Shown here: positions 13,885 to 28,723 of the stretch, one piece after another
Numbering within the stretch: the stretch's first letter is position 1
Layout: each line of letters opens with the position of its first letter
Origin: Plantibacter sp. VKM Ac-2880
GTDB taxonomy: Bacteria; Actinomycetota; Actinomycetes; Actinomycetales; Microbacteriaceae
Reading direction: 5' to 3'
NCBI RefSeq assembly: GCF_015351235.1
Contig: NZ_JADKSJ010000002.1
Coordinates: 186,001-250,000, forward strand
Length of the DNA stretch: 64,000 nt
The notes under the pieces: generated by a model
The model's database searches: none
What the model was told of the DNA's origin: nothing
What the model saw: the letters and a program-made list of their open reading frames with translations, nothing else
Translations under genes and position numbers: made by a program

Positions 13885-15204
13885 CTACTCGGCTCCTTCG
13901 ACCCGGAGCACGGACACGACCCGCTCGACATGGGCGTTCGAGGCGAGCTGCTCGACGGTGGCCGCGAGAGCCGATTCGAGCGCCCGGTGGGTGCCGATGA
14001 CCAGGGTAGCGGTCGACAGCGTGCCGTCCGAGGAGGCCACGGACTGCTGGAACGTCTCGACCGAGACGCCACCGTCACTGAGGATCCCGGCGACGGACGC
14101 GAGGACACCCGGCTCGTCGGCGACCTCGAGGGTCACCTGGTACCGGGTGGTGACGCGACCGATGTCGAGCACGGGCAGGTCCGCGTGGGTCGACTCGCCC
14201 ACACCCGGTCCGCCGGCGACGTGTCGCCTCGCCGCCGAGACGAGGTCGCCGAGCACCGCGGAGGCGGTCTCCTTGCCGCCGGCGCCGGCGCCGTAGAACA
14301 TGAGGCTGCCGGCGTTCTCGGCCTCGACGAACACGGCGTTGTTCCCACCGTGCACGGCGGCGAGCGGGTGCTCGCGCCCGATGAGCGCGGGGTAGACGCG
14401 GGCCGACAGACCCTCCTCGCCCGTGGTCTCGTCGACGATCCGCTCGGCGATCGCGAGCAGCTTGATGACGTAGCCCTCACTCCGTGCGAGGTCGACCTGC
14501 GCCTTGGTGATGCCCGAGATCCCCTCGCGGTGGACGGCTTCGACGGGCACGGTGGTGTGGAAGGCGAGACTGGCGAGGATGGTCGCCTTCTGCGCGGCGT
14601 CATACCCCTCGACGTCGAGGGTCGGGTCGGCTTCGAGGTAGCCGAGCTCGCTCGCTACGGCGGCCGCCGCCTCCATGGTGTCGCCGAAGCGGTCCATCCG
14701 GTCGAGCATGTAGTTGGTGCTGCCGTTCACGATGCCGAGCACCCGGTTGATGCGGTCGCCGGCGAGGCTCTCGCGCAGCGGGCGGATGATCGGGATCGCC
14801 GCCGCCACCGCCGCCTCGTAGTAGAGCTGCGCGCCGACCTGCTCGGCGGCGTCGAAGAGTTCGGGACCGTGGGTCGCGAGCAGCGCCTTGTTGGCGGTGA
14901 CGATGTCGGCCCCGGCGTTGATCGCCTGCAGGATGTGGCTCCGCGCCGGCTCGATGCCGCCGATGAGCTCGATGACGATGTCGGCGCTCAGGATGAGCTG
15001 TTCGGCATCCGTCGTGTAGAGCTCCCGGGGTAGCTCGACGTCCCGCGGGGCGTCGACGTCACGCACGGCGATGCCGATGAGTTCGAGGCTCGCACCGGCT
15101 CGGGACGCCAGCTCGTCGGCGTGCTCGAGCAAGAGACGCGCCACCTGCGAGCCCACCGAGCCGGCGCCCAGCAGAGCCACTTTCAATCCGCGGTATTCGA
15201 TCAT
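13885..15204 (-). CDS. hom: Homoserine dehydrogenase
   Basis: 439 residues with a C-terminal ACT domain, the long actinobacterial form. It reduces aspartate semialdehyde to homoserine with NAD(P)H. GAGSVGSQVARLL (about residue 12) is the dinucleotide-binding loop; LRESLAGDRINRVLGIVNGSTNYML and DPTLDVEGYDAAQKATILASLAF carry the catalytic and substrate residues. The ACT segment YQVTLEVADEPGVLASVAGIL (about 345) suggests feedback control by an amino acid such as threonine. ATG 15204 overlaps the lysA stop by 4 bp. Confidence 0.96.
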   Translation of the reverse strand: MIEYRGLKVALLGAGSVGSQVARLLLEHADELASRAGASLELIGIAVRDVDAPRDVELPRELYTTDAEQLILSADIVIELIGGIEPARSHILQAINAGADIVTANKALLATHGPELFDAAEQVGAQLYYEAAVAAAIPIIRPLRESLAGDRINRVLGIVNGSTNYMLDRMDRFGDTMEAAAAVASELGYLEADPTLDVEGYDAAQKATILASLAFHTTVPVEAVHREGISGITKAQVDLARSEGYVIKLLAIAERIVDETTGEEGLSARVYPALIGREHPLAAVHGGNNAVFVEAENAGSLMFYGAGAGGKETASAVLGDLVSAARRHVAGGPGVGESTHADLPVLDIGRVTTRYQVTLEVADEPGVLASVAGILSDGGVSVETFQQSVASSDGTLSTATLVIGTHRALESALAATVEQLASNAHVERVVSVLRVEGAE

Positions 15205-16607
15205 TCCGTGTCCAATCCCGCATCGCGGCTGAGGAGGTCGTGTTCGGTCTCGCCACGCACGATGATGCGGGCCTCACCGCCTGAGACGGCGACGACGGCC
15301 GGGCGACCGAGGTAGTTGTAGTTGCTCGCCAAGGACCAGCAGTAGGCGCCCGTCGCCGGGACGGCCAGGAGGTCGCCGTCGCGCACGTCGGCGGGCAGAT
15401 AGTCGGCGTTCACCACGATGTCCCCCGACTCGCAGTGCTTGCCGGCGACGCGGACGAGCGCAGCGCCCGCCTCGCTCACCCGGTCGGCGATGCGGGCGGT
15501 GTACTCCGCGCCGTACAGCGAGGGGCGCGCGTTGTCGCTCATGCCGCCGTCGACGCTGACGTAGCGGCGGACCGCCGTCTCACCCTCGTCGTTCCACGCG
15601 ACCGTCACGTCCTTGATCGTGCCGACCTCGTACAGCGTGATGCCGGGACCGCCGATGATGGCGCGACCCGGTTCGAATGCGAGCTTCGGGATCGGGACGC
15701 CGTGGAGCTCGGCCGCGGTCCGCACACCGGCGAGGATGTCCGCGGCGAGCTGCTCGATCGGCGTGGGGTCGTCCGCACTCGTGTAGGCGATGCCGAAACC
15801 GCCCCCGAGGTTCAACTCGGGCACGGGGCCGGTCTCGAGCAGGCGTGCGTGCACGGCGAGGAGTCGGGCAGCGGACTCGGCGAAGCCGTCCGACCCGAAG
15901 ATCTGCGAGCCGATGTGGCAGTGGAGCCCGAGGAAGTCGAGCGAGGCGTACGAGCGGATTCGCGCCACGGCGTCGGCCGCGTCCTCAAGGGGCAGTCCGA
16001 ACTTCTGGTCCTCGTGCGCCGTCGCCAGGTACTCGTGCGTGTGGGCGTGGACGCCGCTGTTGACCCGCAGCCGGACGGACTGGACGCGGCCCGCACGCTC
16101 CGCCGCCGCAGCGACCCGCTCGATCTCGACCAGGCTGTCGAGCACGATGCCACCGATCCCGACGCCGACGGCGCGCTCGATCTCGGCGACGGACTTGTTG
16201 TTGCCGTGGAAGCCCAGCCGGCCGGGGTCGGCCCCGGCAGCGAGGGCGACAGCGAGCTCTCCCCCGCTGCAGATGTCGATGCGGAGGCCCTCCGCCGTCA
16301 TCCAGCGGGCGACCTCGGAGGACAGGAACGCCTTCCCGGCGTAGTAGACGGCGACGCTCGTCCCGTGCGCGGCGGCCTCACGTTCGAAGGCCTCGCGCAG
16401 GCGACGCGCCCTGGCCCGGGCGTCGTCCTCATCGACGACGTAGAGCGGGGTCCCGAAGCGTCGACGGAGGGTGTGCACGTCGACGCCGCCGACGTGCAGG
16501 ACGCCGTCGGCGTCGCGCTCGGCCGAGGCCGGCCACACGGCGGGGTCGAGGGCATTCGGGTCGGCCGGCTCGGCGAGCCAGTCTGGGGCGAGGGGGTTTC
16601 TGGCCAC
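15201..16607 (-). CDS. lysA: Diaminopimelate decarboxylase
   Basis: 468 residues. A fold-type III PLP decarboxylase turning meso-DAP into L-lysine, the last step of lysine synthesis. The PLP lysine lies in VYYAGKAFLS (about residue 80), with GGGFGIAYT glycine-rich phosphate binding, the cysteine motif GKHCESGD and the C-terminal ATGAYCWSLASNYNYLGRPA. GTG 16607 gives the expected N-terminus (MARNPLAPDWLAEP) and follows AGGA at 8 nt; the reading frame continues upstream but without family sequence. A long leader precedes it. Confidence 0.95.
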   Translation of the reverse strand: MARNPLAPDWLAEPADPNALDPAVWPASAERDADGVLHVGGVDVHTLRRRFGTPLYVVDEDDARARARRLREAFEREAAAHGTSVAVYYAGKAFLSSEVARWMTAEGLRIDICSGGELAVALAAGADPGRLGFHGNNKSVAEIERAVGVGIGGIVLDSLVEIERVAAAAERAGRVQSVRLRVNSGVHAHTHEYLATAHEDQKFGLPLEDAADAVARIRSYASLDFLGLHCHIGSQIFGSDGFAESAARLLAVHARLLETGPVPELNLGGGFGIAYTSADDPTPIEQLAADILAGVRTAAELHGVPIPKLAFEPGRAIIGGPGITLYEVGTIKDVTVAWNDEGETAVRRYVSVDGGMSDNARPSLYGAEYTARIADRVSEAGAALVRVAGKHCESGDIVVNADYLPADVRDGDLLAVPATGAYCWSLASNYNYLGRPAVVAVSGGEARIIVRGETEHDLLSRDAGLDTE

Positions 16608-16927
16608 GGGGTTGTCCTGAGTCCTGGTGAGCGGAAGAGGAGGTTCTCGTTGGGCGAGCGGACCCGGTTTGGCCCCTGAAGCACCGATTTGGAGAGCACC
16701 GATGAAGGTGGGTGCGCGCGGCCCGGGCGGGTGTCCCGGTCGACCGCACCCATCGCCGCCCGGTTGGAACGACTGAGGTGGAACACGAGCCTGGCGGCCC
16801 AACGGCACACGTCACCGCCCGGTCGGAGCAGTGGGTGTGGAGAAAGTCTAGCGAGCCGTCGGGGCTCCTGCAGCATCGTGACGTCGCGCCGGTTCGCCGA
16901 GGTGGTCGCGAGCCATCGGCGCAGCGC
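16608..16927 (-). promoter_or_regulatory. lysA leader region (320 bp without a gene)
   Basis: A -10 candidate TAGACT lies at 16845-16850 on the minus strand, implying a lysA leader of about 230 nt. The leader contains several GC-rich inverted segments and a near-direct repeat ATCGGTGCT (about 16679-16705). I do not recognise a lysine riboswitch core. A regulatory leader is plausible but unproven; no convincing gene is present. Confidence 0.4.
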
Positions 16928-18429: not shown

Positions 18430-20100
18430 CTACATGCGCTCCGGAGCGGAGACGCCGAGGAGGGCGAGGCCGTTGCGGATGACGGTGCCGGTGGCGTCGT
18501 TCAGCCACAGCCGCGTGCGGTGGAGGTCGGTGACCGGTTCCTCGCCCATCGGGACGACCCGGCAGCTGTCGTACCACTTGTGGTAGAGGCTCGCCGTCTC
18601 CTCCAGGTGGCGCGCGACCCGGTGGGGTTCGCGCAGCTGCGCGGCCTGTGCCACGATGCGCGGGAACTCCTGGAGCACACCGAGGAGCGCGGACTCCGTC
18701 TCGTGGGCGAGGAGTTCGGGGGCGAACACGCTCCGGTCGACGCCCGCCGAAGCGGCGTTGCGCGCCACCGAGCTCGTCCGGGCGTGCGCGTACTGGACGT
18801 AGAACACGGGGTTGTCGTTCGTGCGGCTGCGGAGCTGCTCGGGGTCGAGGGCCAGCGGCGAGTCGGCCGGATAGCGACCGAGCGAGTACCGCAGGGCGTC
18901 CGTCCCGATCCAGGCCTGCAGGTCGTCCAGCTCGATGATGTTGCCGGCGCGCTTCGAGAGTCGGGCGCCGTTCACACTGACGAGCTGGCCGATGAGCACC
19001 TCGATGTCGCGGTCGGGGTCGTCTCCGGCGGCACCCGCGAGGGCCTTCAGCCGGTGCACGTACCCGTGGTGGTCGGCCCCCAGCAGGTAGACCTTGTGCT
19101 GGAAGCCGCGGTCGCCCTTGTTCAGGTAGTACGCCGCGTCCGCCGCGAAGTAGGTGTAGACGCCGTTCGAGCGACGGATCACGCGGTTCTTGTCGTCGCC
19201 GAAGTCCGTGGTGCGCACCCAGACGGCACCGTCCTCGTCGAAGACGTGCCCCTGCTCGCGCAGGCGGTCGACGGCCTGGTCGATGAGGCTGGTGCCGTCC
19301 GCGTCCGTCGCGTGGAGCGTGCGCTCGCTGAACCAGACGTCGAAGTGGACGTTGAAGCGTTCGAGGGACGCTCGGATCTCCCCGAGCTGGAGGGCGTAGG
19401 CACGCTCACGCGCGACCTCACGGGCGTCGGGGCGCTCGAGCAGGTCGGGGATTTCCGCCAGCACGGCCTTCGCGAGGTCGCCGATGTAGGCACCCGGGTA
19501 GCCGTTCTCCGGCGTCGGCTCGCCCTTCGCCGCGGCGAGCACCGAGTCGGCGAAGGTGTCCATCTGGTTGCCGGCGTCGTTGATGTAGTACTCGCTGACG
19601 AGGGTCGCGCCGGACGCGCCGAGCACGCGGGCCAGGGAGTCGCCGAGGGCGGCCCACCGCGTGTGGCCGATGTGGAGCGGGCCCGTGGGGTTCGCCGAGA
19701 CGAACTCGATGTTGATGGTCTGGCCCGCGAGGCTGTCGTTGCGCCCGAAGGCGTCGCCCGCGTCGACGATGACCTTCGCGAGCGCACCCGCGGCGGCGGC
19801 GTCGAGCCGGACGTTGATGAACCCGGGACCGGCGACCTCGACCGAGGCGACCCCGTCGACCTGGACGAGCGCGTCGGCGAACTCCTGGGCGAGCTCGCGC
19901 GGGTTCGCACCCACCCGCTTCGCGAGCTTCATCGCGATGTTGCATGCCCAGTCGCCGTGGTCGCGGTTCTTGGGCCGCTCCAGCACGACGTCGTCGACCG
20001 AGACCACGACCTCCTGGTCGATGCCAGCCGCCTCGCGTCGTCGTTCGACGATCGGAACGACGATGGCGTGCAGGGCGGAGGCGAGGTCTTCAGGAGTCAC
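18430..20100 (-). CDS. argS: Arginyl-tRNA synthetase
   Basis: 556 residues, class I synthetase charging tRNA-Arg. The N-terminal Add-1 domain ([21 protein letters not shown]), the HIGH signature in [17 protein letters not shown] (about residue 125), a KMSKS-like [11 protein letters not shown], and the terminal [10 protein letters not shown] are all present. GTG 20100 is chosen over GTG 20139 because TAGAAT ends 8 nt upstream with no SD (leaderless) and the homologous N-terminus ([14 protein letters not shown]) starts there. A tRNA-Arg(CCG) gene lies 1 kb away, on the opposite strand. Confidence 0.96.
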
Positions 20101-20108
20101 GAGGAGCG

Positions 20109-20114
20109 ATTCTA
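20109..20114 (-). promoter_or_regulatory. -10 box of argS
   Basis: TAGAAT on the minus strand, 8 nt before GTG 20100, a near-consensus -10 hexamer that fits a leaderless argS mRNA. Confidence 0.5.
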
Positions 20115-20163
20115 CCCGGGCTCCCGGCGGGAGCGGCACGGGGCCGCCCGCCGGAACGACGCG

Positions 20164-20997
20164 TCAGGCGAGTACGACCGGCTGTGAGGGATCGTCGGTG
20201 GGCAGGACGTCGATCAGCGCGTCGATCCGCATGTCCTCGACCGTGACGTTGCCGTGGTGGTTGCTCAACCAGGCGACGTCCGCCGCATCGCGGCCCGTGG
20301 CGATCCGGACGAGTGACTGGCGGGGAGCGAGACCCGTCGCGTCGACCACGTGCCACGCGCCGTCGACGAAGCCTTCGGCGACGGCGTGGAAGTCCATCGG
20401 CACGAGGCCTGGGGCGTACACGGCCGCGTACCGCGCCGGGATGTCGAGGGCGCGCAGCATGGCGATCGTCAGGTGCGCGAAGTCCCGGCAGACCCCCTGG
20501 CCGGCCGCCAGGGTCGAGACCGCGCTGTCGGAGACGGTCGTGGAACCCGAGACGTAGGAGAGGTGACGGCCGACCCACGCGGCGACCCACGGCAGGATCT
20601 GCAGGCCGCCCGACACCGTGCCGTCCTCGTGCAGGCGACGGTGCTCGAGCAGGTATCCGAGCTCGGAGCGCGCGAGCGAGAACAGGGCGTCCGACTCGCA
20701 GTAGCGGCTCGGACGGAGGGCGGTCACCGTCTCCAGGGGGTCGACTGCCCGCGGCACCGCCTGCCCGACGACCACCGCCTCGTAGTCGACCTGCAGGCGT
20801 CCCGGCTCGGCGATCACCCGGTGGAGCCGGGTGTCGTCGGGGCCGAGGATCTCGGTGACGGCGCACGGGCCGTCTGAGGAGCGCACCTGCAGCCGTTCAC
20901 TCGCCAACGGGGTACCACCGGCGACAGCGATGGAGAAGATGAGGTCGGCTCGATCGTGCACCCGCAGATCGAGCGACGCGGTCAGGGTGCGCTGCAT
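20164..20997 (-). CDS. Transglutaminase-like (cysteine protease fold) protein
   Basis: 277 residues. An N-terminal beta domain (MQRTLTASLDLRVHDRADLIFSIAVAGG) precedes a transglutaminase core with the triad GVCRDFAHL (Cys), MDFHAVAE (His) and WHVVDATG (Asp). No signal peptide or membrane segment is visible, so it is probably cytoplasmic; the family's bacterial substrates are mostly unknown and include peptidase-like activities. ATG 20997 is supported by GATGAT ending 6 nt upstream; the longer form from 21027 would begin with MLVTAWDDGH. Confidence 0.82.
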   Translation of the reverse strand: MQRTLTASLDLRVHDRADLIFSIAVAGGTPLASERLQVRSSDGPCAVTEILGPDDTRLHRVIAEPGRLQVDYEAVVVGQAVPRAVDPLETVTALRPSRYCESDALFSLARSELGYLLEHRRLHEDGTVSGGLQILPWVAAWVGRHLSYVSGSTTVSDSAVSTLAAGQGVCRDFAHLTIAMLRALDIPARYAAVYAPGLVPMDFHAVAEGFVDGAWHVVDATGLAPRQSLVRIATGRDAADVAWLSNHHGNVTVEDMRIDALIDVLPTDDPSQPVVLA

Positions 20998-21003
20998 GTG
21001 CCC

Positions 21004-21009
21004 ATCATC
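21004..21009 (-). promoter_or_regulatory. -10 box, leaderless transglutaminase-like gene
   Basis: GATGAT on the minus strand ends 6 nt before ATG 20997. Confidence 0.35.
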
Positions 21010-21046
21010 CCACGCGGTCACGAGCACTCATCCCGCGTCGCTCCGG

Positions 21047-21076
21047 TTCCGGCGATGGCCTCGACTCTGGTAGCTT
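21047..21076 (+). promoter_or_regulatory. Promoter of tRNA-Arg
   Basis: TTCCGG at 21047-21052 and TAGCTT at 21071-21076 with 18-bp spacing, ending 11 nt before the mature tRNA 5' end. Confidence 0.35.
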
Positions 21077-21087
21077 GGACACGTTCC

Positions 21088-21162
21088 GCCTTCGTAGCTC
21101 AGCGGAAGAGCGCTTCCCTCCGGAGGAAGAAGTCGCTGGTTCGAATCCAGTCGAGGGCACCA
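21088..21162 (+). tRNA. tRNA-Arg (anticodon CCG), CCA encoded
   Basis: A full cloverleaf can be drawn by hand. The acceptor GCCTTCG pairs with CGAGGGC (one G-U). The D arm is GCTC/GAGC. The anticodon stem CTTCC/GGAAG encloses loop CTCCGGA, giving anticodon CCG. The T arm is GCTGG-TTCGAAT-CCAGT, then discriminator A and an encoded CCA. It reads the Arg codon CGG, common in GC-rich genomes, and lies near argS. Confidence 0.97.
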
Positions 21163-21180
21163 TCTCATCAGGCGAGGCTT

Positions 21181-21198
21181 CGTCCGCTCACGCGGACG
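21181..21198 (+). terminator. Hairpin downstream of tRNA-Arg
   Basis: CGTCCGC-TCAC-GCGGACG, a 7-bp perfect stem with a 4-nt loop, 18 nt after the tRNA. No U tract follows. Confidence 0.5.
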
Positions 21199-21209
21199 GG
21201 TCACTCCGC

Positions 21210-21215
21210 GATACT
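21210..21215 (+). promoter_or_regulatory. -10 box, leaderless PPTase gene
   Basis: GATACT ends 6 nt before ATG 21222; no SD is present. Confidence 0.45.
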
Positions 21216-21221
21216 GGACGC

Positions 21222-21902
21222 ATGTCGCGTCCGAGCCGTCACCCACAGCCCGCGGTCCGACTCCTCTCCTGGGATCGGGCGGACGAGCTCGACCTCGACG
21301 GCACCGCCGGCCGACTCGACGAGGCCGCCAGGGACCGCCTCGAAGCGTCGTCCGAGGCCGAGGCCCGCCGCTTCCTGTTCGGTCGCGCGCTCCTCGTGGA
21401 CACGGTCGCGAAGACCGTCGGCGCCCGGCGCATCACGGTGACCGCCCACTGCCCGCACTGCGGCCTCGCCCATGGACGCCCGCAGGTGCTCGTCGACGGC
21501 GGGACCGTCCACGCGAGCGTCTCGCACACCGACGGCGCCTCGGCGGTCGCGGTGTCGGTCACGCACGCCGTCGGCGTCGACGTCGAACGGCTCGACGCGG
21601 CACGGTTCGCCGGCGTCGAGACCGTCGCCCTCTCCCCCACGGAACGGGAACGGTGGCACCGGTTGCCGGAGCAGCGCCGCCTCCGGTCCCTCGCCGAACA
21701 GTGGACGGCGAAGGAGGCGGTGACGAAGGCGCTCGGCACCGGACTCGCGACCGATCCGGCCACGATCGACCTCACCGGCCGTGCCGAGTTCACCGGCCAC
21801 GCCGGAGGGACGGTCGCCGAGATCGGCGGACGTCGCTTCGTCGTCGACCATCCGGTCCTCGCACCGGACACCGTGGTGGCGACGGCCCTCCTGCTCGCCT
21901 GA
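21222..21902 (+). CDS. 4'-phosphopantetheinyl transferase (Sfp-type)
   Basis: 226 residues. Sfp-type PPTases move phosphopantetheine from CoA to the active Ser of carrier domains. Both signature motifs are visible: GVDVERLD (about residues 117-124, Mg-binding acidic residues) and WTAKEAVTKALG (about 164-175). An upstream VSHTDG supplies the family's His. The N-terminal half contains a CPHCGLAHGRP stretch. It is convergent with, and 8 bp from, the M1 peptidase gene, which is fused translationally to a carrier-domain synthetase. The synthetase (Ser563) is therefore its most likely client. Confidence 0.88.
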   Translation: MSRPSRHPQPAVRLLSWDRADELDLDGTAGRLDEAARDRLEASSEAEARRFLFGRALLVDTVAKTVGARRITVTAHCPHCGLAHGRPQVLVDGGTVHASVSHTDGASAVAVSVTHAVGVDVERLDAARFAGVETVALSPTERERWHRLPEQRRLRSLAEQWTAKEAVTKALGTGLATDPATIDLTGRAEFTGHAGGTVAEIGGRRFVVDHPVLAPDTVVATALLLA

Positions 21903-21909
21903 CCCGGGC

Positions 21910-23244
21910 TCAGCGGGCGGGGAACGGCGGCAGCGCCTCGCGGAACAGCCAGGCGTCGATCAGCGACTCGATCGGCTCCGGCGCATGGCGGTCAGCGGTG
22001 CGCACGAAGTCCTCGGTCGACACGGTGGCGAACCGGAAGGTCGCCACCCAATCCCGGAGGAGGTCGAAGAAGGCGTCGTCGCCGAGGAGCAGCCGGACGG
22101 CGTGGAGCGTGATGGCGCCGCGCTTGTACACGCGGTCGTCGAACATGTCCGCAGGGCCAGGGTCGCCGACGACGATGTCCTGCGGCGCACGACGGAGCGC
22201 CGCGTAGTGGGCCCTGGCGCACGCATCCGCCGTCTCGGCGCCCGACTGCTCCGACCACAGCCACTCGGCGTAACAGGCGAACCCCTCATGGAGCCAGATG
22301 TCGCGCCAGGCACCGATCGTCAGGCTGTTGCCGAACCACTGGTGCGCGAGCTCATGGGCGATCAACCGTCCGGCGCCACCGACACCGTCGACGTGGTTGC
22401 GTCCGAACACGCTCAGCCCCTGCGCTTCGAGCGGGATCTCCAGCTCGTCGTCGGTGACGACCACCCCGTAGCTGTCGAAGGGGTAGGGCCCGAAGGCCTG
22501 CTCGAAGCAGGCGAGCATGTCGACCTGCTCGGCGAAGTCGTGGCGGAAGTCGGCGGTGAGGTCGCGCGGGAGGTGTGCGACGACCGGCACGGCTGAGGCC
22601 GCCACCCGGGCGTCGACGGTGAGGCGCTGGTAGCGCCCGATCTGCACGGTCGCGAGGTAGGCCGCCATCGGCTCGCGCTGCTCGTAGACCCAGGTCGTCC
22701 GACTCGCGCGTGCCGTCCGCGAGACGAGCTCGCCCGGGGCGACGACGGTGTAGGCCGACGCCGCAGTGACACTGATGCGGTAGGACGCCTTGTCGGAAGG
22801 GTGGTCGTTGCACGGGAACCAGCTCGATGCACCGCAGGGCTGCGAGGCCACGATCACGCCGTCCTCGAGCTCCTCCCAGCCGATCTCGCCCCAGTGGCTG
22901 CGGACCGGACGGGGCGTCCCGGCATAGCGGACGAGGACGGTGAACTCCGCCCCGGTCGCGATCGGTGTCCGCGGGGTGAGGGTCAGTTTGCCCGAGCCGT
23001 GCGTGCGTTTCGCGTCGACGCCGTCCACCTGGGCACGGGTGACGCGCAATGCCGCGAGGTCCAGGGAGAAGCGCGTCAGCTCCTCCGTGGCGACTGCGGT
23101 CAGCCGTGCCGTCGCGCTCAGGCCGTTGCGATCGATCGCGTAGTCGAGGTCGAGCTCATAGCGGACGACGTGGTAGCCGCGGTTGCCGCTCGTCGGCGTG
23201 TAGGGATCGCCTGCGCTCCGCAGGCGGGCGAGCGCCTCCCCCAT
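21910..23244 (-). CDS. M1-family zinc metallopeptidase, candidate polymer-degrading aminopeptidase
   Basis: 444 residues from ATG 23244, whose A is the last base of the synthetase TGA (TGATG coupling). The gluzincin motif HELAHQWFGN (His297, Glu298, His301) is followed 18 residues later by Glu320 in LHEGFACYAEWLW, completing the zinc site. The usual GAMEN exopeptidase motif is replaced by PLEAQGLSVF (about 271-280), as in the short M1 branch. No signal peptide or membrane anchor is evident. Zn-dependent aminopeptidases that degrade epsilon-poly-lysine are known from polymer producers, so tight coupling to the synthetase suggests self-protection or chain trimming (inference). Confidence 0.85.
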   Translation of the reverse strand: MGEALARLRSAGDPYTPTSGNRGYHVVRYELDLDYAIDRNGLSATARLTAVATEELTRFSLDLAALRVTRAQVDGVDAKRTHGSGKLTLTPRTPIATGAEFTVLVRYAGTPRPVRSHWGEIGWEELEDGVIVASQPCGASSWFPCNDHPSDKASYRISVTAASAYTVVAPGELVSRTARASRTTWVYEQREPMAAYLATVQIGRYQRLTVDARVAASAVPVVAHLPRDLTADFRHDFAEQVDMLACFEQAFGPYPFDSYGVVVTDDELEIPLEAQGLSVFGRNHVDGVGGAGRLIAHELAHQWFGNSLTIGAWRDIWLHEGFACYAEWLWSEQSGAETADACARAHYAALRRAPQDIVVGDPGPADMFDDRVYKRGAITLHAVRLLLGDDAFFDLLRDWVATFRFATVSTEDFVRTADRHAPEPIESLIDAWLFREALPPFPAR

Positions 23245-26200
23245 CAGGACGTGACCTGGGGCTCCCGGTACTCCGCCGTCGTCACCTCGCGCCACGGGCC
23301 GATCGGGTTGCCGCTCCATCGGGTGCCGGCGGGGACACGTTCGCCGCGCATCACGAGGGAGGCGGGGCCGACGGTCGCGTCGTCGTCGATCCGGGCTCCG
23401 GGGAGGATGACGCTGTGCGGTCCGAGCGTGGCGCCCGCAGCGAGTTCGACCTGATCCATACTCATGATTCGATCATGGAACAGGTGTGTTTGCACAACGC
23501 AGCCCCGGTTGACCGTCGCTCCGTCGCCCAGCTCGACCAGGTCGGCCTCCGGAAGCCAGTAGCTCTCGCACCAGACGCCGCGACCGATCCGGGCACCCAG
23601 TGACCGCAACCACCAGGTCAGGGCGGGCGTGCCGGTGGCGGGTGCGGCGAACCACGGCGCCGCGACCATCTCGACGAAGGTGTCCGACACCTCGTTGCGC
23701 CAGATGAACGACGACCACAGCGGGTGCTCGCCGGCACGGATCGGCCCGACGATGAGCCACTTGGCGACGGTCGTGATGCCGGCCGCGACCGCGCCGGCCG
23801 CGAGGAGGACGGCACCGCTGACCGCGACGGCCACGCCGAGGCCCCAGGTGTCGGCGAACCACGCGAGGGTGAGCAGGACGAGCAGGGCGATGGCCGTCGT
23901 CACCATGACCGGGACGATGCGACAGACCTCCCAGAGGGAGCGCGCGATGCGGAGCCGCAGCGGCGGTGCGTAGGTGCGGTCGAGATCCGCGTCGGACACC
24001 TGCCTGCGGAGTCGCATCGGCGGGCTGCCGAGCCACGACGACCCGGACTTCGCCTTCCGCGGAGCGGCCGACAGCACCGCGACGAGGCCGTTCTTCGGAA
24101 CGTGCATGCCAGGGCCCGCCATCCCGGAGTTGCCGAGGAATGCGCGCTTCCCGACGGACGCACCCGCGATCCGCATCCACCCGCCACCGAGTTCGTAGGA
24201 CGCCACCATCGTGTCGTCCGCGAGGAACGCGCCGTCACCCACGGTCGTCATGCGTGGCAGGAGGAGGACCGTCGACGCCTCGACGTTCTTCCCGACCTTC
24301 GCTCCGAGCAGACGCAGCCACACCGGCGTGAAGAGGCTGGCGTAGATGGGGAAGAGCAGGGTGCGGGCGGCGTCGAGCAGGCGCTCCGTGGCCCACACCT
24401 GCCAGCCGACCCGGCTGCGCACCGGGAAGTACCCCTCCCGCAGGCCGATGCCGAGCAGGCGGACCAGACCGATGGTGCTGATCGCGAGGACGAGGAACCA
24501 CACGATCGTCGCGACCGGCACCCAGAGGAGCGCGCGCCAGGAGAATTCGACGAGGGACCCGGCACCGGCGGCTCCGGCCGCCACGACCGAGGCCGCGAGC
24601 ACGAAGGCGAGGAACGGCAGCACCGAGAGGAGCGCCGAGCCGACACCGTACGCGAACAGCCAACGCCGCCGCCTGGGTGGACGCTCGGTCGGCCAGACGG
24701 GCTTCGCCTTGCCGACGCGGACGGCGGGCGAACCGGACCACAGGTGACCGGACGGCACCCGACCGAACACCGACGACCCCGGCGCGATCTCGGCGCGCTT
24801 GCCGATGCGCGTCCCGGCGAGCAGCGTGCTGCGAGCGCCGACCGTGCTCTCCGCGCCGATGTGGACGTGGCCGAGTCGGAGCGTGTCGCCGTCGACCCAG
24901 TACCCGCGGAGGTCGACCTCGGGCTCGATGGACGCACGAGCCCCCACGGTCAGGAAGCCGGTGACGGGCGGGACACTGTGCAGGTCGGCGTCGGGGCCGA
25001 TCTTCGCTCCCAAGGCCCGTGCGTATTGCGAGATCCAGGGGGCGCCGGCGAGGCTCACCGCACCGACCGTGTCGGCGACGCGTTCGGCGAGCCAGAGCCG
25101 GACGTGCACCGAGCCGCCGCGTGGGTAGTCGCCAGGGCGCACGCCGGCGAGCAGCAGCCTGGAGGCGACGACCGAGATAGCCATCCGCCCGATGGGGGTG
25201 ACGACGAGGAGGAATCCGAGCGCGATCCACCACCACGAGACCATCGGCAGGTAGGGCACGTCGGCCACGAGGCCGAGCACGCGGCTGCCGGCGAGGAGGT
25301 ACACGAGCCACCGGAGGCCCACGAGGATGAGCAGCGGGATCCCGAGCAGGGTCTGCGCCCACTGGGTCCTGAGTGGGGTGGGGCGGACGGGGGCGGCCGC
25401 AGCGGCGCGGGTGCGACGCTCGGGGCGACGGCCGTCGAGTTCCGCGGCCATGGCGCCGAGTCTCGGGTGGCCGTAGATGTCGGCGACGGTGAACTCCGCG
25501 TCCCTCGTGCGGATGAGCGAGACCAGCTGCGCGGCGGCCAGGCTGCCGCCGCCGAGGCTGAAGAAGTTGTCGCCCTCCGCCGTGACCCGGACGCCGAGCA
25601 CGGCCGTCCACTGTTCGGCGAGCCAGGCCGCCGTGCCCGACAGGGTCGAGGCGTCCTCACCGTCGGTCCCGCCGAGCGGCCACGGCAGTGCCGACCGGTC
25701 GACCTTGCCCGAGGTGCGCGTGGGCAGCTCGGACACGACCGCCAGCAGGGGTACGAGCGGCGCGGGCAACTGCTCGCGAAGGACACCCAGCGCGTCGTCC
25801 AGGGAGAAGGCGTCGCCGTCGGGGACCGCGAGATACCCCACGAGGACCGGGTTGCCGGCCGCGGTGCGCTGGACGGCCGCGGCGGCTCCCGAGACCCCGG
25901 GCAGTGCCTGCAGGGCGGCCTCGATCTCGCCGAGCTCGACGCGACGGCCGCCGATCTTGACCTGGTCGTCCGCGCGTCCCTGGAAGACGAGCCCGGCGGC
26001 CTCGAAGCGGACGAGGTCGCCGCTGCGGTAGGCCCGGTGCCACCCGAGGCTCGGCATGGGCGCGTACCGTTCGGCGTCCTTGACGGGGTCGAGGTACCTG
26101 GCGAGACCGACGCCGCCGATGATGAGCTCACCGACGCCGCCCTCCTCCACCGGTACCCCGTCCGCGTCGACCACGGCGAGGTCCCAACCGTCGAGCGGGA

Positions 26201-27230
26201 GACCGATCCGCACCGGTTGTTCGCCGGTGAGGAGCGCCGCGCAGGCGACGACCGTGGCCTCGGTCGGGCCGTACGTGTTCCAGACCTCGCGTCCGTCGAC
26301 GGCGAGTCGGGCGGCGAGCTCCGGCGGGCAGGCCTCGCCGCCGAAGATGAGCATGCGGATGTTCTCGAGCGACTCCGCCGGCCACATGGCCGCGAGCGTC
26401 GGCACCGTGGACACCACGGTGATGCCCTTCGCGGTGAGCCAGGGACCGAGGTCCATGCCACTGCGGACGAGCGACCGCGGTGCGGGGACGAGGCAGGCAC
26501 CGTGGCCCCAGGCGAGCCACATCTCCTCGCACGAGGCGTCGAAGGCCACGGAGAGGCCTGCGAGCACGCGGTCGCCCGGGCCGAGGGGCTCGGCCTGCAG
26601 GAAGAGTCGGGCCTCGGCGTCGACGAACGCCGCGGCGGACCGGTGGGAGACGGCGACGCCCTTCGGTGTCCCCGTCGATCCCGAGGTGAAGATGATCCAG
26701 GAGTCGTCGTCGAGCCGGGGAGCCTCGAGGATCGGGATCGCCCGGGTCGCCGGGTGCGGTGTCCCCTCGGTGGCGAGCCGGACCGGTTCGCCCGCGGTCT
26801 CGGTCGGCGCTGCGAGACGTCGGAAGACGCCTCCGTCCTCGAGGACCCCGACCACGGCCGCCTCGCCGAACACCAGCCGGGCGCGTTCCTCCGGGTCGTC
26901 GGCGTCGACCGGCACGTACGCGGCTCCCGCGAACAGGATGCCGAGGATGCCGAGGTACAGCTCGCGCGAGCCGGATGCGATCCGCACCCCGACCCGGTCG
27001 CCACGGCGGACACCGGTGGCGAGCAGGGCTGCCGCGAGGCGTTCGGCGCTCACGATGAGTTCGCGGTAGCTGAGCGCGCCCGCCGCGTCCTCGAGCGCGG
27101 AGGCCTCGGGGTGCGCCGCGGCGACGGCACGCAGGACGTCGATCAGGGTGCGTTCGGCGGGCGCACGTCCGCCGCCGAGCAGCGTCGGCTGCCGCTCTGC
27201 AAGCAGGGCGGTGGTGGTCTCAGCGTCCAT
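23244..27230 (-). CDS. Single-module membrane NRPS, epsilon-poly-L-lysine synthetase-like
   Basis: 1328 residues. Adenylation domain, about 1-520: A3 FTSGSTGTPKG (181-191), A5 NTYGPTE (318-324), A7 YRSGD (401-405), A10 PTRTSGKVD (503-511). Carrier domain, about 530-600: DNFFSLGGGS with Ser563. From residue 625 come three repeats of paired membrane helices plus left-handed beta-helix hexapeptides, with no condensation or thioesterase domain. This is the layout and near-length of Pls, which joins L-lysines by epsilon-amide bonds. Specificity residues read by eye are D231 A232 E235 S274 I295 G297 T319 V327 V328 K509, 8 of 10 matching the published Lys code. ATG 27230 follows GAGG at about 8 nt. 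Product and bond type are inferred. Confidence 0.88.
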   Translation of the reverse strand: MDAETTTALLAERQPTLLGGGRAPAERTLIDVLRAVAAAHPEASALEDAAGALSYRELIVSAERLAAALLATGVRRGDRVGVRIASGSRELYLGILGILFAGAAYVPVDADDPEERARLVFGEAAVVGVLEDGGVFRRLAAPTETAGEPVRLATEGTPHPATRAIPILEAPRLDDDSWIIFTSGSTGTPKGVAVSHRSAAAFVDAEARLFLQAEPLGPGDRVLAGLSVAFDASCEEMWLAWGHGACLVPAPRSLVRSGMDLGPWLTAKGITVVSTVPTLAAMWPAESLENIRMLIFGGEACPPELAARLAVDGREVWNTYGPTEATVVACAALLTGEQPVRIGLPLDGWDLAVVDADGVPVEEGGVGELIIGGVGLARYLDPVKDAERYAPMPSLGWHRAYRSGDLVRFEAAGLVFQGRADDQVKIGGRRVELGEIEAALQALPGVSGAAAAVQRTAAGNPVLVGYLAVPDGDAFSLDDALGVLREQLPAPLVPLLAVVSELPTRTSGKVDRSALPWPLGGTDGEDASTLSGTAAWLAEQWTAVLGVRVTAEGDNFFSLGGGSLAAAQLVSLIRTRDAEFTVADIYGHPRLGAMAAELDGRRPERRTRAAAAAPVRPTPLRTQWAQTLLGIPLLILVGLRWLVYLLAGSRVLGLVADVPYLPMVSWWWIALGFLLVVTPIGRMAISVVASRLLLAGVRPGDYPRGGSVHVRLWLAERVADTVGAVSLAGAPWISQYARALGAKIGPDADLHSVPPVTGFLTVGARASIEPEVDLRGYWVDGDTLRLGHVHIGAESTVGARSTLLAGTRIGKRAEIAPGSSVFGRVPSGHLWSGSPAVRVGKAKPVWPTERPPRRRRWLFAYGVGSALLSVLPFLAFVLAASVVAAGAAGAGSLVEFSWRALLWVPVATIVWFLVLAISTIGLVRLLGIGLREGYFPVRSRVGWQVWATERLLDAARTLLFPIYASLFTPVWLRLLGAKVGKNVEASTVLLLPRMTTVGDGAFLADDTMVASYELGGGWMRIAGASVGKRAFLGNSGMAGPGMHVPKNGLVAVLSAAPRKAKSGSSWLGSPPMRLRRQVSDADLDRTYAPPLRLRIARSLWEVCRIVPVMVTTAIALLVLLTLAWFADTWGLGVAVAVSGAVLLAAGAVAAGITTVAKWLIVGPIRAGEHPLWSSFIWRNEVSDTFVEMVAAPWFAAPATGTPALTWWLRSLGARIGRGVWCESYWLPEADLVELGDGATVNRGCVVQTHLFHDRIMSMDQVELAAGATLGPHSVILPGARIDDDATVGPASLVMRGERVPAGTRWSGNPIGPWREVTTAEYREPQVTS

Positions 27231-27388
27231 GCGCGATCCTCTGTCGTCCGGCCATCAGCGCCGCCAACGCTAGGGAGCGCAGGTGGACGGCCGGTGAACC
27301 CCAGTCAACCGCGAGGTGTCGCGGGCGCGACGGCGACGCACCGCACGCCCGGGGGAAGCTCGCCGGACTCGCGCCTACCATGGCCTGC
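27231..27388. promoter_or_regulatory. Divergent promoter region between synthetase and gabT
   Basis: Leftward: TAGCGT (minus strand, about 27268-27273) is a -10 candidate for the synthetase, with GAGG as SD. Rightward: TACCAT 27376-27381 ends 7 nt before gabT ATG 27389 (leaderless). I see no clear operator palindrome. Confidence 0.4.
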
Positions 27389-28723
27389 ATGACCATCGAA
27401 TACTCCGTGCCCCAGGAACGTCAGCTCGTGACCGCCATCCCCGGTCCCCGATCGCTCGCCCTCACGGAACGGCGCCGTTCCGCAGTGTCGCGCGGCGCGG
27501 GCAACCTCGCCCCGGTCTGGATGGACCACGGCTCCGGCGGCATCCTCGTGGACGTCGACGGCAACCGCATCATCGACCTCGGCACCGGCATCGGCGTCAC
27601 GACCATCGGCCACGCCAACCCGGACGTCGCCGCGGCAGCCGCCGAACAGGCCACGAAGCTCACGCACACGCTCTTCACGGTGACTCCGTACGAGAACTAC
27701 CTGCGGGTGGCGGAGAAGCTCGCCGAGATCACCCCGGGCGACTTCGAGAAGCACTCGATCCTCTTGAACTCCGGGGCCGAGGCCGTGGAGAACGCCGTCA
27801 AGATCGCGAAGAAGTACACGGGGCGCCGCGCGATCGTCGCGCTCGACCACGCCTTCCACGGCCGGACGAACCTCACCATGGCGATGACCTACCGCCCCGC
27901 CCCCGAGCGGCTCGGCTTCGGTCCGTTCCCCGGCGAGATCTACAGCGTCCCGCTGTCCTACCCCTTCCGCGACGGGCTCACCGGCCCTGAGGCCGCCGAG
28001 GTGACGATCGACTACATCGAACGGCACATCGGTGCGAGCGAGGTCGCCGGGTTCTTCGCCGAACCGATCCTCGGCGACGGCGGCATCGTGATCCCCGCCC
28101 CCGGCTACTTCTCGCGCATCAGCGAGTGGTGCACCGAGAACGGCATCGTGTTCGTCGCCGACGAGATCCAGGCCGGCATCGGTCGGACGGGTGCCTGGTA
28201 CTCGATCGAGCACCACGGCGTCGTCCCCGACCTCATCACGAGCGCCAAGGGGATCGCCGGCGGCTTCCCGCTCTCGGCGGTCACGGGTCGTGCCGAGATC
28301 ATGGACTCGGTACAGCCCGGCGGCATCGGTGGCACCTTCGGCGGCAACCCGGTGTCGACCGCCGCGGCGCTCGCCACCTTCGAGGTGATCGAACGGGAAG
28401 ACCTGCTGGGCGAGGCGCGTCGAGTGGGAGCCACGCTGCAGGCGCTCATGGGCGACTGGGCCGAGCGGTTCGACATCGTCGGCGAGGTCCGGATCATCGG
28501 CGCGATGGCCGGTGTCGAACTCGTCGTCCCGGGCACGAAGCAGCCGCACCCCACGGCGCTGCAGACGATCATCGATGCGGCGATCGCCCAGGGCGTGCTC
28601 GTCCTCGACGCCGGCTCGTGGGACTCGGTGCTCCGGTTGCTCCCGAGCGCGGTCATCTCCGACGAGCTGCTTCGCGACGCGGTCTCGGTCCTCGAGGACG
28701 CGCTGGCACAGGTCACGTCCTAG
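27389..28723 (+). CDS. gabT: 4-aminobutyrate aminotransferase (class III PLP aminotransferase)
   Basis: 444 residues. It transfers the omega-amino group of GABA (or a similar omega-amino acid) to 2-oxoglutarate, giving succinate semialdehyde. Visible are the PLP-ring segment NSGAEAVENAVKIA, HAFHGRTNLTMAMT, the DEIQAGIGRTG Asp that contacts the pyridine nitrogen, and the PLP lysine in TSAKGIAGGFPLSAVTG (about residue 287). ATG 27389 is supported by TACCAT ending 7 nt upstream; ATG 27380 overlaps that box. It is divergent from the synthetase. It could supply or remove omega-amino acids, but it also fits ordinary GABA catabolism together with the class-I amidotransferase-like gene at 29.6 kb. 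Confidence 0.9.
   Translation: MTIEYSVPQERQLVTAIPGPRSLALTERRRSAVSRGAGNLAPVWMDHGSGGILVDVDGNRIIDLGTGIGVTTIGHANPDVAAAAAEQATKLTHTLFTVTPYENYLRVAEKLAEITPGDFEKHSILLNSGAEAVENAVKIAKKYTGRRAIVALDHAFHGRTNLTMAMTYRPAPERLGFGPFPGEIYSVPLSYPFRDGLTGPEAAEVTIDYIERHIGASEVAGFFAEPILGDGGIVIPAPGYFSRISEWCTENGIVFVADEIQAGIGRTGAWYSIEHHGVVPDLITSAKGIAGGFPLSAVTGRAEIMDSVQPGGIGGTFGGNPVSTAAALATFEVIEREDLLGEARRVGATLQALMGDWAERFDIVGEVRIIGAMAGVELVVPGTKQPHPTALQTIIDAAIAQGVLVLDAGSWDSVLRLLPSAVISDELLRDAVSVLEDALAQVTS

Follow-up and report, generated by a model that had tools for sequence, protein, structure and literature searches.

Does the locus at positions 21222-27230 of this stretch of DNA from Plantibacter sp. VKM Ac-2880 direct the synthesis of epsilon-poly-L-lysine (epsilon-PL), and what parts might be played by the two enzymes encoded beside its large synthetase? 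The stretch as a whole, here called the window, comprises 64,000 nucleotides, and the locus consists of pls, a gene for an M1 zinc peptidase and a gene for an Sfp-type 4'-phosphopantetheinyl transferase (PPTase). Epsilon-polylysine is a natural antimicrobial that also serves as a food preservative. We think it highly probable that the locus makes this polymer or a very close lysine isopeptide. A preliminary description of the window had proposed an epsilon-polylysine-like synthesis locus, and this proposal appears well founded given that the synthetase matches TIGR02353, falls in a lysine-type clade, contains a carrier serine and membrane modules that are conserved in its relatives, and has the same predicted pocket residues as the adenylation domain in PDB entry 7wew.

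All three genes were found again at the positions first assigned to them. The claimed translational coupling (TGATG) is real, with the peptidase ATG sharing one base with the pls TGA, in frame, and so is the closeness of the PPTase and peptidase genes, whose ends are separated by 7 bases. The features are as follows:

23244-27230, minus strand: pls, 1328 residues (ATG at 27230, stop at 23244), encoding an epsilon-poly-L-lysine synthetase homologue with adenylation (A), thiolation (T) and terminal domains
25686-27131, minus strand: Pls adenylation domain, approximately residues 34-515 (PF00501, TIGR01733 and the 7wew alignment), predicted pocket DAESIGTVVK
25440-25625, minus strand: Pls carrier (thiolation) domain, residues 536-597 (PF00550)
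25542-25544, minus strand: Ser563, the putative phosphopantetheine site of Pls, Ser in 106 of 107 aligned rows
23301-25358, minus strand: predicted terminal (polymerising) domain of Pls, residues 625-1310 (TIGR02353, hydropathy, AlphaFold, Foldseek)
21910-23244, minus strand: pldII-like M1 zinc peptidase gene, 444 residues (PF01433, PF17900), TGATG-coupled to pls
21222-21902, plus strand: Sfp-type PPTase gene, 226 residues (PF01648), convergent with the peptidase gene

The synthetase and its predicted substrate

The 1328-residue protein belongs to the Pls/PosA family, as judged by a score of 741 bits against TIGR02353, the profile with which a comparison had been proposed, far over the curated cut-off of 423.1. 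Pfam places an AMP-binding domain at residues 34-378 and a carrier at 536-597, and TIGR02353 covers the terminal domain at 625-1310. The only Pfam families represented are AMP-binding, PP-binding and hexapeptide repeats. An ordinary modular non-ribosomal peptide synthetase can be ruled out, since no Pfam match to a condensation or thioesterase domain was found in the 1328 residues.

Among solved structures, the top match is 7wew, the adenylation domain of the Streptomyces albulus epsilon-PL synthetase (E 7e-188). The A domains share 67-68% identity, and the ten pocket residues, DAESIGTVVK, are the same at all ten positions. The preliminary description had named these ten residues correctly, but its count of eight matches in ten, measured against the code DAESIGSVCK, was too low. 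The code is exact in 101 of the 107 aligned rows; the other six comprise DFEYNGTVTK, DFECLSAVSK, DFEYVGTVTK, two partial reads and one DAESVGTVVK. According to PMC10522769, the second pocket position is Ala in lysine-activating enzymes, Phe in a diaminopropionate enzyme and Met in PosA. The alanine found at this second, size-setting position of the window protein fits lysine as the predicted substrate.

Might the synthetase nevertheless make another cationic isopeptide, built from ornithine, diaminobutyrate, diaminopropionate or beta-lysine, or a mixed polymer? The family does include such enzymes of equal layout (PMC10522769), and both code types occur in some Streptomyces genomes. However, the pocket equals that of 7wew in ten residues of ten, including the size-setting alanine, and the rows with DFE-type or partial codes form a branch of their own, at 36-37% identity. 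We regard a non-lysine product as very unlikely and have set it aside on pocket identity and tree placement.

That placement comes from a FastTree analysis of 80 rows, in which a branch with support of 100 separates 75 rows, 74 with the code DAESIGTVVK and one with DAESVGTVVK, from the five DFE-type or partial-code rows; the tree tool flagged long branches between the two sets. The taxon sample comprised neither PosA, the Corynebacterium variabile protein, the beta-lysine synthetases nor the 7wew fragment, and it included 13 of the 39 named loci (defined below) from orders outside Micrococcales. The phylogeny suggested at the outset thus puts the window Pls with the lysine-type enzymes and apart from the DFE-type paralogues. 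Within the lysine-type set, it clusters with the other members of its genus in a group of Microbacteriaceae, a branching pattern that suggests mainly vertical inheritance. The DAESVGTVVK protein, one residue off the lysine code, is the second Pls (L153) of one Streptomyces genome (G810), and it groups with Pseudonocardiales.

The remainder of the protein also has the character expected of the family. By hydropathy, membrane segments form three pairs near residues 628-687, 866-918 and 1105-1149, with one extra over-threshold segment at 90-108, inside the adenylation domain. An AlphaFold model of residues 600-1328, made with 31 relatives aligned, has a mean pLDDT of 84.7 and a pTM of 0.86, and its helices alternate with strand-rich, beta-helix-like stretches. 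When this model was compared with the PDB by Foldseek, the top matches were hexapeptide acyltransferases, for example CysE and maltose O-acetyltransferase, with modest scores (best E 8.4e-05). The terminal domain is thus modelled as three pairs of membrane helices interspersed with three beta-helix units of the hexapeptide type (C1-C3). Hexapeptide acyltransferases use a catalytic histidine. The only terminal-domain histidine conserved at 97% or more (106 rows) is H1249; it lies in the third unit, within the sequence QTHLFHDR, and is retained in the five DFE-type or partial-code rows. A published model of PosA has a corresponding architecture, and the predicted fold of the Pls terminal domain agrees with it (PMC10522769). 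The one-module layout originally proposed, in which adenylation and carrier domains precede three helix/beta-helix repeats, is therefore borne out by Pfam, TIGR02353, hydropathy, AlphaFold and Foldseek together. Position 563 is Ser in 106 of the 107 rows and a gap in the remaining one, and the 7wew fragment stops before this site. Both the carrier serine and the membrane modules, whose loss the preliminary description had named as a refutation, are kept in the relatives.

At E 1e-150 or better, Pls is present in 23 of 60 relatives, among them all seven genomes of the genus. With the 7wew domain as query, it is found in 95 of 394 genomes drawn from the class (E 1e-120 or better). Could the locus be vestigial and make no polymer? 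In favour of this view, the C. variabile locus is silent under laboratory conditions (PMC8117764). Against it, the pls frame runs without inner stops in all seven genus genomes, the other six being 93-98% identical, and Ser563 and the lysine pocket are kept in the three that were aligned. We find a vestigial locus scarcely probable at all.

Two further observations concern the wider family. Pls-type genes occur on 19 plasmid records (E 1e-100 or better), including three from Rhodococcus, one from Nocardia and five from Mycobacterium. In addition, three Streptomyces genomes carry frames of 876-908 residues (L151, L152, L159) that score 757-847 bits against TIGR02353 and look too short to accommodate an added adenylation domain; these might be stand-alone polymerising domains.

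The coupled peptidase and its probable location

The peptidase matches PF01433 and PF17900 of the M1 family and contains HELAH and a downstream glutamate (Glu321 in a numbering that counts one residue ahead of the Met). Its closest solved structure is 6a8z, named a zinc metalloprotease, and it is 44% identical to the peptidase beside a 7wew-like Streptomyces Pls. It corresponds to PldII of S. albulus (PMC9223678, PMC8117764), whose gene overlaps pls by 4 bp (PMC4361855) and which is described as translationally coupled to pls and sited outside the membrane (PMC9223678).

Conservation of this arrangement was examined in 80 named loci, which are the best 80 of at least 586 and hence represent close relatives only. 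Approximately 5 kb of flank was taken where the contig permitted, and two loci have little DNA beyond the peptidase frame (2 bases in L057, 502 in L063). Micrococcales contribute 41 of the loci and other orders 39, one of the latter being a Rhodococcus metagenome-assembled genome that the taxonomy look-up mis-assigned to order. An M1 gene lies in the locus in all 80. A start codon in the M1 frame overlaps the pls stop in 55, by 4 bases in 35 loci and by 1 base in 20, and in 7 loci its frame opens 44 to 2068 bases past that stop. Among the Pls-bearing relatives, an M1 gene adjoins pls in 22 of 23, the exception (G046) encoding a DFE-type protein.

Where does this enzyme act? To address the question, N-termini were read from the first start codon near the pls stop up to the conserved domain, and an export signal was scored as a mean Kyte-Doolittle value of 1.5 or more over 12 residues plus RR, either anywhere or within the first 25 residues. 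For comparison, 22 Streptomyces loci were picked by hand (21 of the 36 genomes matching 7wew, plus G271); one has no M1 gene in its stretch. With RR allowed anywhere, a twin-arginine-like signal is present in 18 of the 21 Streptomyces homologues, and the three that do not qualify (L184-L186) match 7wew less well, at 68-70%. Under the same rule, a single one of the 80 named loci qualifies (L099), at a doubtful far-upstream start, and none does when RR must lie within the first 25 residues. The hydrophobic 12-mer itself is absent from the window peptidase, from the 41 Micrococcales homologues and from 17 more relatives in the genus, family and order. Given that no export signal is recognised, the window peptidase is probably cytoplasmic, and a role as a guard in self-protection would fit this location better than the trimming of secreted polymer.

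The alternative is an extracellular peptidase that trims or recycles the secreted polymer, as has been proposed for S. albulus PldII and as the preliminary description had assumed in speaking of trimming. PldII is reported on the membrane exterior, and its repression altered chain length, with longer chains being formed (PMC9223678). Moreover, three of the 21 Streptomyces homologues also have no signal, so that the lack of one may not be decisive for the role. Yet the signal found in 18 of those homologues is seen neither in the window protein nor in the 41 from Micrococcales, and a review states that neither production nor chain length changed when Pld and PldII were inactivated (PMC8506220), in conflict with the evidence that PldII sets chain length (PMC9223678). 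Thus, the trimming claim is weak as originally made, on account of the missing signal and a divided literature. We consider extracellular trimming or recycling rather unlikely, and we favour the guard role for the coupled peptidase.

The phosphopantetheinyl transferase and the surroundings of the locus

The PPTase scores 52 bits against PF01648 (cut-off 25) and keeps the signature GxDxE...WxxKEAxxK, with G118, D120, E122, W161, E165 and K169 invariant in 11 rows. An Sfp-type PPTase lies within the locus in 36 of the 41 named Micrococcales loci, versus 0 of the 39 from other orders, where one locus in each set has too little DNA past the peptidase gene (L063, without a PPTase, and L057, respectively). 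Of these 36 enzymes, 33 are encoded convergently after the peptidase gene, 29 of them within about 310 bases of the end of its frame, and the remaining three loci (L064, L104, L107) have the gene placed otherwise. Among Pls-bearing relatives, the linkage holds in 18 of 23, a count that joins 13 positives from an examination of 18 of the 22 non-window genomes with G000 and G003-G006; the other five (G013, G041, G042, G046, G049) have no PPTase in the stretch searched but have one elsewhere in the genome.

Co-occurrence extends beyond linkage. With a family profile (E 1e-5 or better), an Sfp-type match is present in 23 of 23 Pls-bearing relatives versus 6 of 37 that lack Pls, a difference with a Fisher p of 2e-11 when genomes are counted and 7e-9 when genera are, with no correction for phylogeny. 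The family-built profile recovered the PPTases of G017 and G035, both of which a PF01648 count had overlooked. Six more Pls-less genomes, which were left uncounted, have weaker matches only (8.8e-5 to 6.4e-4), and in five of these the weak match is the single PF01648 protein of the genome, G023 being different. At E 0.001, the window genome encodes two PF01648 proteins, namely the locus PPTase and an AcpS-like protein, and two PF00550 carriers, namely Pls and an acyl carrier protein beside fabF. A third PF01648 protein is present in five of the seven genus genomes (G001, G003-G006) and was not found in the window genome or G002.

It could be argued that the PPTase is a general enzyme of secondary metabolism that is found here by chance. 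Six relatives without Pls own such a PPTase, and it is not in the stretch in 5 of the 41 Micrococcales loci, L063 offering only 502 bases, or in 5 of the 23 Pls-bearing relatives. However, linkage in 36 of 41 loci, in more than one arrangement, and co-occurrence of 23/23 versus 6/37 both speak against this explanation, as does the window genome, which shows only a fatty-acid acyl carrier protein as another carrier domain. A chance neighbour therefore strikes us as quite unlikely. Priming of Pls by the adjacent PPTase, as first suggested, is well supported by this context of linkage, co-occurrence and a sole non-fatty-acid carrier, and we strongly infer that the enzyme primes Ser563.

A plus-strand open frame of 1222 codons (23724-27392) lies opposite pls, and we judge it most likely to be a shadow frame in GC-rich DNA. 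A tRNA-Arg (CCG) gene at 21088-21162, just ahead of the PPTase gene, might mark an insertion edge of the pls block. Farther away are argS (18430-20139), lysA (15201-16808; TIGR01048) and a homoserine dehydrogenase gene (13885-15204), which end approximately 1, 4 and 6 kb from the PPTase gene. The proximity of lysA, about 5 kb from the peptidase gene, holds in all seven genomes of the genus. In the 16 Pls-bearing relatives outside the genus, lysA is on the same contig at a distance of at least 38 kb in nine and on another contig in seven, and we have rejected this neighbourhood as a part of the system.

A proposed system and its relation to known loci

For substrate, product, priming, export and the location and role of the peptidase, we infer the following scheme. 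The PPTase would place phosphopantetheine on Ser563, and the A domain would adenylate L-lysine and then load it onto the carrier. The membrane terminal domain, with its three fused hexapeptide acyltransferase-like units and six helices, would link lysyl residues via their epsilon-amines and move the growing chain out through the membrane. Translated together with pls, the M1 peptidase would most likely act inside the cell as a guard, hydrolysing polymer that stays in the cytoplasm or leaks back into it; trimming of exported polymer is a less likely function.

Several points weigh against this scheme. The pocket by itself cannot exclude close analogues of lysine, the peptidase could leave the cell without a recognisable signal, and no product is known from the source organism. 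A scan of positions 20900-27500 for terminators and for one promoter type found neither a terminator nor a promoter-like site. Epsilon-PL was not detectable in C. variabile itself or in C. glutamicum expressing its pls (PMC8117764), and Plantibacter sp. RU18, which has such a cluster, displayed no such activity in the pairwise antagonism assays described (PMC13188922). By analogy with these two negative cases, the locus may therefore be silent in its source organism.

How does the locus compare with systems already known? It resembles S. albulus Pls/PldII in layout, in all ten pocket residues, in the translational coupling of the peptidase and in the A domain (67-68% identity). It differs in that overall identity falls to approximately 55% over 1281 residues in a comparison with Pls of two S. 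albulus-like Streptomyces genomes, whose own A domains are 93-94% identical to 7wew, and in that its peptidase is without the twin-arginine-like signal. Furthermore, no PPTase was found in the 19 kb stretches around pls in these two Streptomyces genomes (L149, L150).

A second counterpart is the Pls locus of C. variabile, a species of a different order from the window organism. Compared by description, it likewise comprises a pls-peptidase operon in a non-filamentous actinobacterium, and its pls made epsilon-PL when expressed in S. coelicolor (PMC8117764). The same paper traces the distribution of pls across coryneform actinobacteria, Microbacterium and Arthrobacter among them. PosA, the delta-poly-L-ornithine synthetase, and the synthetases of diaminopropionate and diaminobutyrate polymers share the overall architecture, but the pocket of PosA is DMEHNGTVSK (PMC10522769) and the DFE-type rows stand on a branch of their own.

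Closer to the window organism, clusters have been described in Agrococcus, Microbacterium, Leifsonia and Plantibacter, genera of its own bacterial family. Epsilon-PL (NAPAA) clusters of equal antiSMASH type are reported for the first three (PMC12067966) and for Plantibacter sp. RU18 (PMC13188922), and an epsilon-PL cluster is reported in Subtercola (PMC9287328). These Microbacteriaceae reports differ from the present analysis in that, in the passages covered, they are based on antiSMASH and alignment and mention neither PPTase linkage nor peptidase location (PMC12067966, PMC13188922). Linkage of a PPTase to pls is likewise not reported in the passages covered of PMC4361855 and PMC11078359, and, among the literature matches listed, the papers naming pldII do not contain the term 'signal peptide'. 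The locus type is already published, also for Microbacteriaceae including Plantibacter (PMC12067966, PMC13188922), and the PPTase linkage and a putative intracellular peptidase are at most small additions to it.

If these additions are considered together, we see an even chance that outside the S. albulus-like streptomycetes an intracellular guard peptidase replaces the exported one, and that in Micrococcales pls, a cytoplasmic M1 peptidase and a dedicated PPTase constitute a portable, self-priming unit in genomes with little other carrier-protein chemistry, this last property being read from the window's own genome only. Since the C. variabile gene was silent in its native host and yielded no polymer when expressed in C. 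glutamicum (PMC8117764), activation and context matter in practice. To activate Micrococcales Pls proteins in other hosts, co-expression of the PPTase may be needed. The difference between the peptidases suggests another likely place and role for the pls-coupled enzyme, and its location bears on how producing cells withstand their cationic product and on what determines the length of that polymer.

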